From: a virus
Strand: one strand, 5' to 3'
Virus record (IMG/VR): IMGVR_UViG_3300045120_000102
Span: 1-55,693 of that record
Length of the DNA: 55,693 nt
The position numbers were made by a program, and so were the translations under genes. The notes under the pieces were generated by a model that was given only the letters and a program-made list of their open reading frames with translations, did not search any database and was not told where the DNA came from. How positions within the stretch are numbered: position 1 is the first letter of the stretch; every line of letters starts with the position of its first letter. Positions 4,165-55,062 of the stretch are shown piece after piece.

Positions 4165-4358
4165 GAAGCTGCCTCGTCGGTCAGCAGCTCTTGAATGTCC
4201 GAGCGTGAGTAGCGCCGATGTCCGGTGGGGGTCCGTAGGGCGGTGATGCGGCCGGACTTCTCCCAGCGACGGAGCGTGTCCGTGGAGATTCCGAGAATGT
4301 AAGCGGCCTCACCAACGCTCAGTTTTCCGTCTTCAGGTACAGCATGCTTATTTCGCAT
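4161..4358 (-). CDS. MerR-like helix-turn-helix protein, Xis or Cro
   Basis: 65 residues. [20 protein letters not shown] is a clear winged-helix MerR/excisionase recognition motif, followed by [14 protein letters not shown], the usual wing. It is the first gene of the minus-strand operon diverging from the repressor-integrase pair. That position is used by either excisionase (directing integrase) or Cro; the MerR fold favours excisionase, possibly with a regulatory role. The promoter at 4366-4394 would start transcription at or within a base or two of the ATG. Confidence 0.82.
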
Positions 4359-4469: not shown

Positions 4470-4820
4470 ATGAGTGTTGACATTGCCTACGTGATCCCGG
4501 TATGGACACTTGGGGACCGTCTACGGAAGATCCGGGCCGATCTTGGCCTCGGCCAAAAGGAGTTCGCGTTCTCGATCCAGGTGACGGCGAGTGCACTGGC
4601 CCAGTGGGAAACCCACCGATCTAAGCCCAGGGATCAGGTTGAGATCGCCCGACGCATCGAGAAGGCCCACCGTGTGCCAGCGGCCTGGACGCTCGGCTTG
4701 GCTACGTCCAGTGATGCCGACGGGGGTTTGCTGCTCCCTTGGATAGATTCAAACGTGCAAACGCACGGTTGCCGTGGCAAATCCTTTTGGCCTGCACGTG
4801 AGCTAGTTAACGTGGCCTGA
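4470..4820 (+). CDS. Immunity repressor (XRE family)
   Basis: 116 residues from ATG 4470; the frame is open further upstream, but this start places the helix-turn-helix near the N-terminus and fits a leaderless transcript. [20 protein letters not shown], then [20 protein letters not shown], form a standard HTH_3/XRE domain at about residues 15-75. Only about 40 residues follow, with no peptidase-type domain. It ends ...ARELVNVA and its TGA overlaps the integrase ATG by one base. The small size, the fusion-like overlap with int and the repeat-rich 3' end resemble the repressors of integration-dependent immunity systems (as in mycobacteriophage BPs), where integration truncates the gene. Confidence 0.82.
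4750..4800. other. Candidate attP region inside the repressor 3' end
   Basis: Within 51 bases: a direct repeat CAAACG (4750-4755, 4758-4763), a dyad CGTGC-AAAC-GCACG (4754-4767), a dyad TTGCC-GT-GGCAA (4769-4780) and the palindrome CACGTG (4795-4800). Because repressor, integrase and the following gene overlap, there is no space next to int for attP, so it is likely here. No tRNA-like core was identified. Confidence 0.4.
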
Positions 4821-5713
4821 TGACCACGACAATTTGTAGTAGCAAACAGTTAGCTGGTATTTGTCAGAGCATGACACAACGAACGTACAGCCTGCCCCCG
4901 GGGTGGGAGGAAGCCATCGGGCAGTGGGTCGCGTGGATGACCATCTCCGCTGCTAGCCCGGAAACCATCCGGGTCCGCAGGGGCGCGGTGCGCTACATCG
5001 CCCGACACACCCAGAGCGAATCCCCCACAGACATCACGACCAGCCAGCTCGTCGCGGTGTGCGCAGCCCGGCGATGGTCGAACGATCACCGACGCAACAT
5101 GCGGTCCCACATGGTCACGTTCTACGACTTCTGCACCCAAACAGGGATATGTGAGGCAAACCCGGCGCGTAACCTGCCCGTGGTGCCGGAATCGAAACCC
5201 CGCCCCCGCCCCGCGACCGACCAAATCTGGTCCGACCTGCTCACCGCCGCACCCCCACGCGAACAACTGATGGCACGCCTCGCCGGGGAAGCCGGACTCC
5301 GACGGGCGGAAGTCGCCCAGGTGCATCGCGACGACCTGATCCACGACCTCGGAGGGTGGTCGCTGATCGTTCACGGCAAAGGCGGCAAGCAACGCACGGT
5401 ACCAATCACCGACGGTTTGGCGGCAACGCTCCGCACTCACCGCTACGGGTATTCGCCGCGCGGCTACCTGTTCCCCGGCCGCACTGACGGTCACGTCTCC
5501 CCCGGGCATGTCGGGGTGCTGATCTCGCATCTCATGCCGGACGGCTGGTCAATGCACAGGCTCAGACATCGGTACGCGTCTCGCGGGTACGCGGGGACCG
5601 GGAACCTACGCGCGGTGCAGGAAGCCTTAGGTCATGCGAGTGTCGCCACGACAGAGCGCTACACCTTGGTCACCAGTCGTGATGTGCGGGCAGTAACAGA
5701 AGCAGCAGCGTGA
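4820..5713 (+). CDS. int: Tyrosine integrase
   Basis: 297 residues. The N-terminal half carries a SAM-like core-binding domain (about 30-120: WVAWMTISAASPETIRVRRG). The catalytic domain has R161 in GLRRAEVAQ, K187 in HGKGGKQRTVP, H246 and R249 in MHRLRHRYAS, H272 in ALGHASVATTERYT and the nucleophile Y281, so all catalytic positions are present. It lacks the long arm-binding N-terminus of large integrases. The protein ends TEAAA, a small-hydrophobic tail like ssrA-type degradation tags, which are known on integrases of integration-dependent immunity phages. An internal ATG at 4871 (MTQRTY) is an alternative start. Confidence 0.93.
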   Translation: MTTTICSSKQLAGICQSMTQRTYSLPPGWEEAIGQWVAWMTISAASPETIRVRRGAVRYIARHTQSESPTDITTSQLVAVCAARRWSNDHRRNMRSHMVTFYDFCTQTGICEANPARNLPVVPESKPRPRPATDQIWSDLLTAAPPREQLMARLAGEAGLRRAEVAQVHRDDLIHDLGGWSLIVHGKGGKQRTVPITDGLAATLRTHRYGYSPRGYLFPGRTDGHVSPGHVGVLISHLMPDGWSMHRLRHRYASRGYAGTGNLRAVQEALGHASVATTERYTLVTSRDVRAVTEAAA

Positions 5714-8834: not shown

Positions 8835-8905
8835 CCGAGCAGCACTATCAGGACGGCGACCAATACCACGCACGTCAGGAACCACAACCAGTCGTTACGG
8901 GTCAT
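8831..8905 (-). CDS. Tiny membrane protein (24 aa) directly after lysB
   Basis: ATG 8905 overlaps the lysB stop (ATGA). Product MTRNDWLWFLTCVVLVAVLI plus VLLG: a near-minimal single membrane helix. It is coupled to lysB and to the following TTG mini-gene. Confidence 0.48.
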   Translation of the reverse strand: MTRNDWLWFLTCVVLVAVLIVLLG

Positions 8906-9858
8906 GCCGCGCGCAGGTAGTCGATAGCGGGGCCGATGTTGTAGTTCACATGCGGTCCCGTCTGATGAACGAAGAACAGGCCCGCATCCCACAATGCTTT
9001 GAACATTGCGGTTATCTCGATCAGCCGGGCGATCTCACTCTTCGGGTTCAGGATTTCCAGCACCTGCGCGAGGATCGAATCAGGCCCGGACAGCACGTCC
9101 ATGTTCATGATGAATTTGTAGATCGCGGTCTTGTCTTCAGCACTCTGACCGGAACAGTCCGTGTACAGGTCCGCTCTGTGGGCGTAGTCGCGCCACCACG
9201 GCGGGGTGTTCGTCAGCAATTCGTCGGCGATGCCATGCGACGTTGCTTCCGCTGTTGGTGCGCCCGGATCGGCCCACGCTTTGCCCTGTTCCCGCATCGG
9301 GTTGCCGAACGTGACCGCTTTCAGCATGTGCTGTTTAGCCCAGTGCAGGCGCCCGCCCTCCGGTTCGATGGCGTACTTCCACAACTTGCTGGTGATGACG
9401 GCGCCCTGGCTGTACCCGATCATTGAGACGCCGTGCTGCTCGATGCGGCGCCGGTGCTCAAACCCGGGTTCCATCCGTTCGAACTCGACGCACGCAGCCT
9501 CATAGCCTTCGTCAACCGACTTGCCCATAGGGAACACCGCAGCCGGATAGCCGACCCACTGCCACCGATACTTGTTCTCGACAGCGCGGGCGGTGTCCGC
9601 GTCAGGGCCAACCCATCCCGGCACACCAGTACCGCACACCGTCAACAACAAAGGCCGAACGTCCGGGCCCGGTGGGCGTTTCAGGTAGCCCATCACATAC
9701 TTCGTCTCGGCGTTAATCACACCCGGCAGATACTTCTCCTTAGGGAGGCGTCCCTGCTCCTCATACCGTGACTGCATCTCAGCGACCGCCGCCGTCATCG
9801 CGTCGTCGTAGACGGTGGTGTCAGCCAACTCGTGGGCGTAGGAGAAACGTGGACGCAT
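8902..9858 (-). CDS. lysB: LysB mycolylarabinogalactan esterase
   Basis: 318 residues from ATG 9858. Alpha/beta hydrolase with the nucleophile S150 in MIGYSQGAV, LLTVCGTGVPGW near the oxyanion hole, Asp in DYAHRADLYTD and a C-terminal His in HQTGPHVNYN. LysB proteins cut the ester linking mycolic acids to arabinogalactan and free the outer membrane at lysis. The frame stays open upstream of the only ATG. Codons back to about 9936 encode RIGDDYVGIGSG...EEVRKIKAW, which looks like the peptidoglycan-binding N-terminus of LysB, but no ATG, GTG or TTG is present before the in-frame TAG at 9963. See findings. Confidence 0.9.
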   Translation of the reverse strand: MRPRFSYAHELADTTVYDDAMTAAVAEMQSRYEEQGRLPKEKYLPGVINAETKYVMGYLKRPPGPDVRPLLLTVCGTGVPGWVGPDADTARAVENKYRWQWVGYPAAVFPMGKSVDEGYEAACVEFERMEPGFEHRRRIEQHGVSMIGYSQGAVITSKLWKYAIEPEGGRLHWAKQHMLKAVTFGNPMREQGKAWADPGAPTAEATSHGIADELLTNTPPWWRDYAHRADLYTDCSGQSAEDKTAIYKFIMNMDVLSGPDSILAQVLEILNPKSEIARLIEITAMFKALWDAGLFFVHQTGPHVNYNIGPAIDYLRAA

Positions 9859-40434: not shown

Positions 40435-40503
40435 GGCACAGAGGTTTTCGGACCGGATTAACGTCAACGCTCTCCGGTGGCGTGCGCTGCTAAACTTGGC
40501 AGC

Positions 40504-41049
40504 ATGTGCAAAGTGGATTCTTGCGATCGCTCTCCTCATGTGCGCGGCTATTGCCGCGGGCACTACGAGCGCGTAGTCATGCACGGAGACCCACGCACTG
40601 GCGATCCCCTTCGCTCACCAGGCGTGCGTCACAAGTGTGGCGTTGAGGGCTGCGTTCACCCCAGTAAGGCAAGGAACATGTGCAACACGCACTACTACCG
40701 CTGGTTCACAACCGGAAGTACTGATGCGCCTGACGCTCCTCCGACTAGGAAGAGTGGGGATCGGTTACTACTAAATGACGATGGTTACCGAACTGTTTAT
40801 CTTCCTGGTCATCCGATGTCGAATGCCGCAGGCATCGTCTTTGAGCATCGACTGGTGATGGCGCAGAGCCTTCAGCGCAACTTGCTCCGCAGTGAGACCG
40901 TCCACCACCGAAATGGGATTCGTGCCGACAACCGTATTGAAAACCTGGAGCTTTGGAGCAAGGCGCACCCAACAGGCCAACGCGTAGAGGACAAGGCCCT
41001 CTGGGCAGAAGAGTTCCTACGCTTATACGCGCCCGAGAAGCTTAAATGA
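40504..41049 (+). CDS. Antisense HNH homing endonuclease in the packaging region
   Basis: 181 residues from ATG 40504 on the plus strand, against the packaging operon. Two Cys/His repeats, CKVDSCDRSPHVRGYCRGHY and CGVEGCVHPSKARNMCNTHY, probably bind DNA. The C-terminal HNH is EHRLVMAQSLQRNLLRSETV, HHRNGIRADNRIENLELWSK. Overlaps the 3' end of the convergent HNH gene by 8 bases. Inserted between the packaging HNH gene and the terminase. Confidence 0.85.
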   Translation: MCKVDSCDRSPHVRGYCRGHYERVVMHGDPRTGDPLRSPGVRHKCGVEGCVHPSKARNMCNTHYYRWFTTGSTDAPDAPPTRKSGDRLLLNDDGYRTVYLPGHPMSNAAGIVFEHRLVMAQSLQRNLLRSETVHHRNGIRADNRIENLELWSKAHPTGQRVEDKALWAEEFLRLYAPEKLK

Positions 41050-41368
41050 AGCGCGGGTTCACATACGACGCACGAACCAACACCACACCACCAGCAGACT
41101 TCTCCCGATTGCACTGCCGACACACCGCCTGGCAATTATCCAACGCATCAGCCTCAACTACCGACCAACCCAAACGCATAGCCTCATCAGAACTGACAAT
41201 ATGGTCAACCTCAAACGAACGAGGGTGCGGCGGGCGGGCCTCATAGTCGATCAGCCCGCCAAACGCCTGGCAATCAGCCGTAATCTGCAACGCACACGGA
41301 TCATCCCCATCACGCCGACGAACCTCAGCCCGACGACGAGTCCGGATCGTGGTCGACGAGAACGGCAC
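41042..41368 (-). CDS. Packaging-associated HNH endonuclease
   Basis: 108 residues. RAEVRRRDGDDPCALQITAD, FEVDHIVSSDEAMRLGW and NCQAVCRQCNREKSAGG form a canonical HNH domain (D-H pair, then CXXC). Small HNH proteins next to terminase are conserved in cos phages and assist genome cutting (HK97 gp74 type). It is on the same strand as terminase but separated from it by the antisense HNH gene. Confidence 0.85.
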   Translation of the reverse strand: MPFSSTTIRTRRRAEVRRRDGDDPCALQITADCQAFGGLIDYEARPPHPRSFEVDHIVSSDEAMRLGWSVVEADALDNCQAVCRQCNREKSAGGVVLVRASYVNPRFI

Positions 41369-41516
41369 GCCAACCTCCTACCCGAAATCCCCCATCCCTG
41401 GGTGACACACACACTGGCCTATGCCGGGAGAGGCGGTGGTGGTGGCTTGTGGGGGTGGTCCCCCTGGGGCCTATCGTGTCGCCGCGTTGAGTAGGCGTGT
41501 TCCTGGCCAAGGGCAC
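41369..41516. other. 148-base noncoding gap, candidate cos region
   Basis: No convincing ORF on the late strand. It contains a G-rich block (41424-41460: ggcggtggtggtggc), a hairpin GGGGG-TGGT-CCCCC (41451-41464) and a run of CA dinucleotides (41405-41412). Placement beside the packaging HNH gene makes it a candidate cohesive-end site or terminator. No cos overhang can be identified from sequence alone. Confidence 0.35.
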
Positions 41517-41804
41517 TTATGGGCGGACGCTTGGGTCTAGCCATGCGTGGTAGGCGTCCCGGTATTGGGGACAGACGTTCAGTTCTGCTTCGGTCTGATC
41601 CCGCCATGCCTTGGCTGACTCGTTGGTCGATCCGTCGCCGCCTATTGCGGCCATCATCGCGAGGCTGTTGAACGCTGCCGGGCCTTCTTTGTCGAGCAGT
41701 GTGCAGGTTGTGTTTGTGGCTGGTGCCTGTGATCCGCAAGCGGCGACCAATGCGAGGACGGTCACGGCGGCGGTCAGCCACATGGTGCGGGGTGCGGGTG
41801 GCAT
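41517..41804 (-). CDS. Lipoprotein (95 aa) with its own leaderless promoter
   Basis: ATG 41804 gives MPPAPRTMWLTAAVTVLALV followed by AACGSQ: a signal peptide with lipobox VAAC, then a Ser/Thr linker and a small domain with two more Cys (TTCTLLDKEG, ELNVCPQYRDAYHAW), possibly a disulfide. It would be lipidated on the outer face of the cell membrane. A promoter with -35 TTGCCC and -10 GATAAT ends 7 bases before the ATG. Separate expression and surface location resemble superinfection-exclusion lipoproteins, which is inference. Confidence 0.75.
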   Translation of the reverse strand: MPPAPRTMWLTAAVTVLALVAACGSQAPATNTTCTLLDKEGPAAFNSLAMMAAIGGDGSTNESAKAWRDQTEAELNVCPQYRDAYHAWLDPSVRP

Positions 41805-41811
41805 GGCGTTG

Positions 41812-41840
41812 ATTATCCCGGAGGAGGGGAGAACGGGCAA
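41812..41840 (-). promoter_or_regulatory. Leaderless promoter of the lipoprotein gene
   Basis: On the minus strand: TTGCCC (41840-41835, 4 of 6), spacer of exactly 17, GATAAT (41817-41812, 5 of 6), then 7 bases to ATG 41804. It overlaps the 3' end of the preceding aromatic/Cys-rich gene. Same geometry as the promoter at 4366-4394. Confidence 0.6.
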
Positions 41841-42136
41841 TCAGCCGAGGCACCTATAGTGCTGCCCGAGTAGTACACCCACAGAGTATCAACCCACGGT
41901 CCGTTACCCGTTCCGAACGGGCTCCCTGTCCAATACGACCAGACGTACAGTCTGCCGCCGCAGCACGCCTCATACTTACGTCGGAACGGTGACCAAGAGA
42001 AGCGGGTGCGCCACGGACGGAACTCGTACCTGTACCGGGTAACTTGGCGGGTCTTCCGGCACGGATAAGGGAAGATCCATCGCCAACAGATGGACCAATA
42101 CGTGACTGTGACTGTTTCCCGGTCGCCGCATGCCAT
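41813..42136 (-). CDS. Aromatic- and Cys-rich basic protein (107 aa)
   Basis: ATG 42136 overlaps the upstream TGA by one base. Very rich in Trp, Tyr, Arg and Cys: YWSICWRWIFPYPCRKTRQV, TRYRYEFRPWRTRFSWSPFR, EACCGGRLYVWSYWTGSPFG. No membrane helix is long enough to be certain and no signal peptide is seen. No family recognised. Codon positions favour this frame. The gene ends inside the lipoprotein promoter. Confidence 0.55.
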   Translation of the reverse strand: MACGDRETVTVTYWSICWRWIFPYPCRKTRQVTRYRYEFRPWRTRFSWSPFRRKYEACCGGRLYVWSYWTGSPFGTGNGPWVDTLWVYYSGSTIGASADCPFSPPPG

Positions 42137-42474
42137 CAGGAGGTCGGTTCGACCGCTTCGTCGGCGGCCTTCAATGCGTCGAGGTCGGACTGGAATGCGG
42201 CTGCATCTTCGGCTTCCTTGGCGGCGAGCTGACTCGCATCGGTCACCGCGTCGTCGGCTACGAAAGCCTGCAAAGCGTCGGCATTCTCCTGCGCCTTCAC
42301 AGCGTTCGCCTCAGCGAGAGCGAGAGCGGCGTCCCTTTGCGCTTTCAGCTCCTCGGCGTAGCTCCGGTAGTCGGCGCGTACCTGCTCGATAGTGGCGGCC
42401 ATAGCGGTCAGTACTCCTTCGATGCGGTTCAGTTGGTTGATGATCGGTTGTAACAGCCATTCAGTGAAGGTCAT
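42136..42474 (-). CDS. Coiled-coil protein (112 aa)
   Basis: ATG 42474 preceded by AGGAAGG; the upstream extension lacks a site. TFTEWLLQPIINQLNRIEGV is amphipathic, then a long Ala-rich coil (ADYRSYAEELKAQRDAALAL, AEANAVKAQENADALQAFVA) and an acidic tail. Possibly a scaffold-like or trimeric protein; no family recognised. Confidence 0.65.
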   Translation of the reverse strand: MTFTEWLLQPIINQLNRIEGVLTAMAATIEQVRADYRSYAEELKAQRDAALALAEANAVKAQENADALQAFVADDAVTDASQLAAKEAEDAAAFQSDLDALKAADEAVEPTS

Positions 42475-54058: not shown

Positions 54059-54387
54059 GACACGGTCACCCACTCCGAGCACGTCGACAGCAGCTCGTCG
54101 TAATCGCATGCCAGAGCCTGATCCCGGAACTCCGAGACGGTGTTGCGGTCAACCCCGGAGTCTTTCAATGCCGTCACGACAGCGCCGATGATGTTGTAGG
54201 CGTTCAATTCGTAACCTGTGAGATCAGCTATATTTGTGTGCGGCTCACCGGTTATGAGCCGCACCGTTATATGTGGATACCTGGGCGTTTTCGGTGCCCG
54301 GTATTCGGGATGCCCCCTAGGTACCGGGATGTGCATACCGCCGATCATCGGAAGGCCCGACCAATCCTGTTCGATGGCCTCACTCAT
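54055..54387 (-). CDS. Conserved phage protein (110 aa)
   Basis: MSEAIEQDWSGLPMIGGMHI, then YPHITVRLITGEPHTNIADL, GYELNAYNIIGAVVTALKDS, DYDELLSTCSEWVTVS. Alpha/beta, soluble. Its segment HITVRL...GxANA-like recurs in mycobacteriophage early proteins, role unknown. Confidence 0.68.
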   Translation of the reverse strand: MSEAIEQDWSGLPMIGGMHIPVPRGHPEYRAPKTPRYPHITVRLITGEPHTNIADLTGYELNAYNIIGAVVTALKDSGVDRNTVSEFRDQALACDYDELLSTCSEWVTVS

Positions 54388-54638
54388 GGCTGCGGTACCC
54401 CCGGGTACACCCGGTAGCAGTTCCGCCCACCGATCCCGAACACGTAGGTGCTCTCACAATGCGTGTAGCTGCCGTCGCTGGCGTAGTCGAAGTCGCAGTA
54501 CCCGCCGCCGAAGCCGAACGCGCCCCCGGACGCGCAGCCGGTCGCATTTGCGACATCGGTAGCACCCGTCGCGGCGAACCCTGCAGCAAGTCCGGCCGCG
54601 ATGAACGGTGCCGCAACAAGTTTCAATCCTAATCTCAT
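54384..54638 (-). CDS. Secreted Cys-rich protein (84 aa)
   Basis: ATG 54638 with GGGGAAG upstream; GTG 54659 is an in-frame alternative. MRLGLKLVAAPFIAAGLAAG is a signal peptide, with likely cleavage after ATDVANA. The mature part (TGCASGGAFGFGGGYCDFDY, THCESTYVFGIGGRNCYRVY) has four Cys, likely two disulfides. It resembles small mycobacterial secreted proteins. It would act outside the cell, and its part in phage biology is unknown. Confidence 0.72.
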   Translation of the reverse strand: MRLGLKLVAAPFIAAGLAAGFAATGATDVANATGCASGGAFGFGGGYCDFDYASDGSYTHCESTYVFGIGGRNCYRVYPGVPQP

Positions 54639-54655
54639 ACTCTTCCCCTTCAAGT

Positions 54656-54742
54656 TCACAGCGACACCAGGGCCAGGTACTCCAACGCCTTTGCCGCGCA
54701 ATACAATCCGACCAAACCAGCTACCGTCCGCAGGCATGTCAT
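54656..54742 (-). CDS. Mini-protein (28 aa)
   Basis: ATG 54742 overlaps the DUF732 gene stop (ATGA). MTCLRTVAGLVGLYCAAKAL then EYLALVSL: one hydrophobic helix. Its stop overlaps the alternative GTG of the next gene. Confidence 0.42.
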   Translation of the reverse strand: MTCLRTVAGLVGLYCAAKALEYLALVSL

Positions 54743-55062
54743 ACCGCCATCTCGTGACGGCCACGGCGACCGATCTGCTCCAAAAGCGGCCACCACTCAG
54801 GGCACAACTCATGGACGGACGCGTTGACGATGTCTGCTGTCGATTCGTCATCCCATCCGTCGACATGGACAGCGCCAGCGACTCTGAGAACCCCAGCTTC
54901 GGTCGGGTAGGTGGCGATTAGGCCGCATATCGTGTAGCCCCACTTCTCCGCGTAGGCCAGTTCAGCGGCGGATAGGTAGCCGTCCGCGCGGGCCAGGCCG
55001 GGGAACAGGATGCCGCAGAAGATGAGCAGTGGGCATGTCCACCAAAACCGCCACGGCTTCAT
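54739..55062 (-). CDS. DUF732-type secreted protein (107 aa)
   Basis: MKPWRFWWTCPLLIFCGILF followed by PGLARA is a signal peptide. The mature part (YLSAAELAYAEKWGYTICGL, IATYPTEAGVLRVAGAVH, ASVHELCPEWWPLL) has the helix pattern and paired Cys of DUF732, a family of secreted mycobacterial proteins also seen in mycobacteriophages. It would be exported by the host. A host-mimic or cell-surface role is possible. Confidence 0.78.
   Translation of the reverse strand: MKPWRFWWTCPLLIFCGILFPGLARADGYLSAAELAYAEKWGYTICGLIATYPTEAGVLRVAGAVHVDGWDDESTADIVNASVHELCPEWWPLLEQIGRRGRHEMAV

Follow-up and report, generated by a model that had tools for sequence, protein, structure and literature searches.

T5 Llp is a small phage lipoprotein that blocks an outer-membrane receptor in Escherichia coli. 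In a stretch of viral DNA of 55,693 nucleotides (IMG/VR record IMGVR_UViG_3300045120_000102; the whole stretch is hereafter called the window), we analysed a minus-strand gene at 41517-41804 that is predicted to encode a lipoprotein of 95 residues, and whose likeness to T5 Llp lies solely in its being a small lipoprotein. In Streptococcus phage TP-J34, the prophage expresses Ltp, which sits anchored on the outside of the membrane and prevents DNA injection (PMC3952083). Ltp (PF07553) is, like the window protein, a small phage lipoprotein, but the window protein has no Pfam match and its gene does not lie in a lysogeny module. Among mycobacteriophage genes, gene 90 of the cluster K phage Adephagia, which encodes a HicB-like antitoxin near the right end of the genome, is strongly expressed in lysogens and has a putative leaderless promoter (PMC11373665). 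Its sequence, TAACAT-7-ATG, has the same 7-nucleotide spacing as the window gene, and both genes lie near the right cos end, whereas the product of gene 90 is a cytoplasmic antitoxin and a strong hairpin marks the end of the gene 90 transcript. Gene 40 of Adephagia, for an LprJ-like lipoprotein, is also expressed in lysogens and lies beside the integrase gene (PMC11373665). It is a mycobacteriophage lipoprotein gene as in the window, a likeness of description only, but it adjoins integrase on the opposite strand.

Our reading of the window gene is that it is an accessory (moron) lipoprotein gene with a leaderless promoter of its own, perhaps expressed from the prophage. We put the probability of this reading at roughly 40%. 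Lysogen expression is plausible by analogy with Adephagia gene 90.

A predicted lipoprotein gene at the right cos end

The window is the genome of a temperate cluster-F/Phistory-like siphophage. Its terminase is 74-79% identical to those of Mycobacterium phages Soul22, Yoshi, Avani, and Zapner (Avanivirus), and identity with Gordonia phages Phistory and Horus falls in the same range. The record is circularly permuted relative to the packaged DNA. The junction CTCTCCCGGCAT/AGGCCAGTGTGTGTGTCACC aligns with the Phistory and Horus records where their two ends are joined, and therefore places the left chromosome end, running on the minus strand, at 41420 and the right end at 41421; the ends ...GGCAT / AG... 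recur in further relatives. What an earlier note on this DNA had taken for a late/early boundary is actually this cos site. The lipoprotein gene comes last in the right arm, shares the orientation of the whole arm, and ends about 100 bp from cos.

The reading frame runs from the ATG at 41804 to a last codon ending at 41520, followed by TAA at 41519-41517. The precursor begins with MPPAPRTMWLTAAVTVLALVAA, followed by CGSQAP..., and its n-region, h-region, and lipobox (VAA/C, with the cysteine at residue 23) make up a predicted bacterial lipoprotein signal peptide, as the earlier note had described. Such a well-formed signal was found in this gene only among the 372 open reading frames (ORFs) of at least 50 residues in the window, and in none from 10 shuffled genomes. 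At +6.6, the codon score is only modestly positive and is the best of the same-strand frames at the locus, and GC content by codon position is 0.63/0.58/0.69. That the frame is spurious and no gene at all would accord with this modest score and with the lack of a homologue in any collection; it is nevertheless very improbable given the complete lipoprotein signal, the best same-strand coding score, and a promoter at leaderless spacing.

No credible homologue was found by tblastn against phages (E up to 10) and plasmids, by scans of viral and genome contigs, or in NCBIfam and PDB sequences. A search of 297 genomes from the genus to which Mycobacterium sp. DL99 belongs gave no credible homologue either; the best per-genome E value was 0.001, and the matches mostly extended into the signal peptide, some containing stops. 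Pfam gave no family at E ≤ 1, including Ltp (PF07553) and VG64 (PF25682), and PADLOC no defence family. In PHROG there was no convincing match to a family that could correspond to T5 Llp. A weak match to PHROG 456, an Rz-like spanin family (E 0.019), raises the alternative of a lysis protein, an outer-membrane spanin. The same weak match was given by an unrelated lipoprotein of another phage (L010, described below), so that the signal peptide probably accounts for it. The gene also lies at cos, away from the lysis region (LysB, 8902-9858), with no adjoining gene for an inner-membrane partner, and a spanin is hardly credible.

A single-sequence AlphaFold2 model of the window protein was three-helical with low confidence, the mean predicted local distance difference test (pLDDT) score being 63.5, and a Foldseek search with it returned nothing below E 3. 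Judging from its signal, export of the product would be followed by lipid attachment through host Lgt/LspA, leaving the protein on the outer face of the cytoplasmic membrane. The mature part, which contains Cys34 and Cys78, may form a small helical domain in the model, perhaps stapled by these two cysteines.

A candidate leaderless promoter

Upstream of the gene, independent scans agreed on the string TTGCCC, 17 nucleotides, GATAAT, CAACGCC, ATG. The −35-like hexamer (41835-41840, minus strand) matches the consensus at 4/6 positions and the −10-like hexamer (41812-41817, minus strand) at 5/6, ending 7 nucleotides before the ATG. The predicted +1 is the A that opens the start codon, preceded by a C at −1, and no Shine-Dalgarno sequence is present. 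In M. smegmatis, promoters carry ANNNT at −13 to −6 with no −35 consensus, TANNNT being stronger than VANNNT, and mapped start sites show the combination of C at −1 with A at +1 that is seen here (PMC6448022). The layout is that of the switch gene starting at 4358 on the minus strand (TTGACA-17-TTAAGT-7-ATG), a resemblance that the earlier note had pointed out; the repressor gene at 4470 has TTGCGC-17-CACACT-6-ATG.

The genome was scanned uniformly for sigma70-type sites at a cut-off of at least 9/12, with 5-8 nucleotides before a start taken as leaderless distance. The candidate promoter was the sole such site on the minus strand of the window, and the only one at leaderless distance anywhere in the window. 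In the right arms of 37 relatives, which are not mutually independent, 0 of 13,646 candidate starts had such a leaderless site, the promoter site itself having been chosen post hoc. The single minus-strand site compares with about 8 in dinucleotide shuffles; this depletion suggests selection against stray promoters. The earlier claim that no other gene outside the switch has such a promoter thus holds at this cut-off with the −35 included, but fails under a rule based on the −10 alone. That the gene has a leaderless promoter of its own, also proposed there, is supported at the level of sequence.

Several observations weigh against an independent, prophage-active promoter. By the ANNNT rule from M. 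smegmatis, 19 of the 93 predicted window genes have the motif at leaderless distance, compared with 13% in the background. The −35 element matches at only four of six positions, mycobacterial SigA needs none, and GATAAT belongs to the weaker VANNNT class. Prophage-expressed genes usually adjoin the attachment site (PMC8092301), and this one does not. No clear terminator precedes the late operon, so that a constitutive transcript would run on across cos and reach the packaging genes. In addition, selection on the protein cannot be shown without any homologue.

Some of these points fit a different arrangement, in which the hexamers arose by chance, a long early operon has the gene as its distal cistron, and coupling or re-initiation provides for its translation. 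The gene is co-oriented with the whole right arm, ANNNT is common at leaderless distance, and a Shine-Dalgarno sequence is missing from over half of the predicted genes. Moreover, an upstream ORF of 107 residues (41813-42136, minus strand) ends 8 nucleotides before the ATG, its TAA stop codon lying within GATAAT. The ORF that coupling would need, however, has poor coding statistics (a codon score of −3.0 and a GC content of only 0.45 at codon position 1) and no homologue, and thus about 330 bp of non-coding DNA may precede the lipoprotein gene. The last well-supported gene before it is a coiled-coil-like early gene at 42136-42474 (minus strand) that matches PHROG 25837. Against an early-operon origin also stand the uniqueness of the site in the window, its absence from the starts scanned in relatives, and the independent repetition of the arrangement in L010; we consider such an origin somewhat less likely than the moron reading.

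The position of the promoter bears on another alternative. In mycobacteriophages, late transcription can start to the left of cos and pass through cos into the structural genes, and in ZoeJ late expression likewise starts near the right cos end (PMC11373665). Late transcription could therefore start at this position, and prophage expression cannot be assumed. A late promoter starting at 41804 would drive, through cos, an operon of HNH, terminase, and structural genes, with the lipoprotein as first cistron; the HNH endonuclease gene is gene 1 of the left arm and adjoins cos (41042-41368, minus strand). Consistent with such read-through, a consensus scan found no terminator-like site between the lipoprotein gene and cos. 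A weak hairpin (GGC....GGGGG ACCA CCCCC....GCC, 41444-41471, minus strand) lies there as a doubtful terminator, and we rejected it as a conserved terminator before cos, since its folding is barely better than that of shuffled sequences (z = −0.93). Against this, a late promoter would be expected to be conserved with the late genes, whereas the last 9 kb of relatives gave only three weak hits to a comparable site, and a SigA-like leaderless site suits constitutive use better than activator-dependent use. We consider this explanation unlikely.

On the moron reading, the SigA-type promoter would be sited such that the mRNA begins with the A of the start codon. No operator-like sequence common to the switch region and the lipoprotein promoter was found; because of this, we infer that the promoter may be free of the immunity repressor, and the prophage would then yield a leaderless mRNA of the gene.

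The right-end slot in relatives

The right ends of relatives vary from phage to phage, carrying glycosyltransferases, HNH proteins, and small membrane or unknown proteins, and no counterpart of the window lipoprotein gene was found there. Judged from these sequences, the cos-adjacent slot is hypervariable, and the gene fits a moron in being absent from close relatives and placed in a variable slot; as a moron it would occupy this slot within about 100 bp of cos. Regions of 40 relatives, mostly whole right arms, contained no coding-strand lipoprotein gene beside cos. We rejected a right-end lipoprotein as a general feature: among the scanned phages it was seen only in the window and in L010 (IMGVR_UViG_3300047472_000152).

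In L010, the last gene before cos encodes a lipoprotein of 149 residues with no similarity to the window protein. It has no Shine-Dalgarno sequence, a −10 hexamer TAGCAT lies 8 nucleotides before its ATG, and a 7-bp hairpin follows directly after its stop codon. Its model is helical (pLDDT 81), and a structure search returned generic helical bundles only. It is homologous to Mycobacterium host lipoproteins (best 39%, E 2e-20), with relatives in 23 of the 98 genomes searched around Mycobacterium sp. DL99. The two genes are thus alike in slot, lipoprotein signal, lack of a Shine-Dalgarno sequence, leaderless −10, and helical model, whereas L010 has clear host relatives and the window protein (95 versus 149 residues) has none. 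The presence of unrelated lipoproteins at one slot points to uptake at least twice independently, once apparently from the host. Extended further, the slot may repeatedly take self-contained, prophage-expressed lipoprotein genes, host-captured in L010 and orphan in the window, that alter the lysogen envelope and exclude competitors; we regard this broader idea as decidedly unlikely.

Lipoproteins of another family, Phage_VG64 (PF25682), are encoded in the right arm of the cluster F relatives L105 (L105:1490-1792) and L111 (L111:5300-5731), 14-18 kb from cos. The L105 copy appears truncated; the L111 protein, used as positive control for the VG64 search, matched PF25682 at 3e-56.

If made in lysogens, the window lipoprotein would alter some envelope-level process. 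One candidate function, though quite an unlikely one, is to keep other phages from bringing their DNA into the cell; an influence on the fitness or stress of the lysogen is an equally open alternative. Exclusion of other phages is a guess and was not derived from our data. Mycobacterial prophages protect their hosts in many ways, and in the literature searched no surface exclusion lipoprotein was among them, nor was an exclusion lipoprotein found in any mycobacteriophage. If the gene is prophage-expressed, it would be a small and easily tested exclusion candidate, and the right cos end would be worth searching for lysogen-expressed genes, beyond the better-known neighbourhood of the attachment site.

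Other features of the phage genome

The repressor gene (4470-4820) is directly followed on the plus strand by the integrase gene (4871-5713), and a small MerR/excisionase-like gene (4358-4161, minus strand) is divergent from this pair. By analogy, the layout resembles that of integration-dependent immunity systems. The phage attachment site attP was not located, and the attP-based host search gave only partial matches of 28-34 bp. An Rfam search of the 40-45 kb region gave no match.

A second HNH endonuclease gene (40477-41049), on the opposite, plus strand, separates the HNH gene next to cos from the small terminase gene. It has no counterpart at that place in Phistory and Horus, and is probably a homing endonuclease insertion. 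Both contig ends (1-254 and 55475-55693) lie in short tandem repeats, and the gene at 55664-55059 matches its family, 288 residues long, over residues 84-283 only, so that the record is probably that of a circular genome interrupted within a repetitive gene. Two more exported proteins, lacking a lipobox, are encoded in the early region (54384-55062, minus strand), and one of them has a borderline match (E 0.003) to DUF732, a family typical of mycobacterial secreted proteins.
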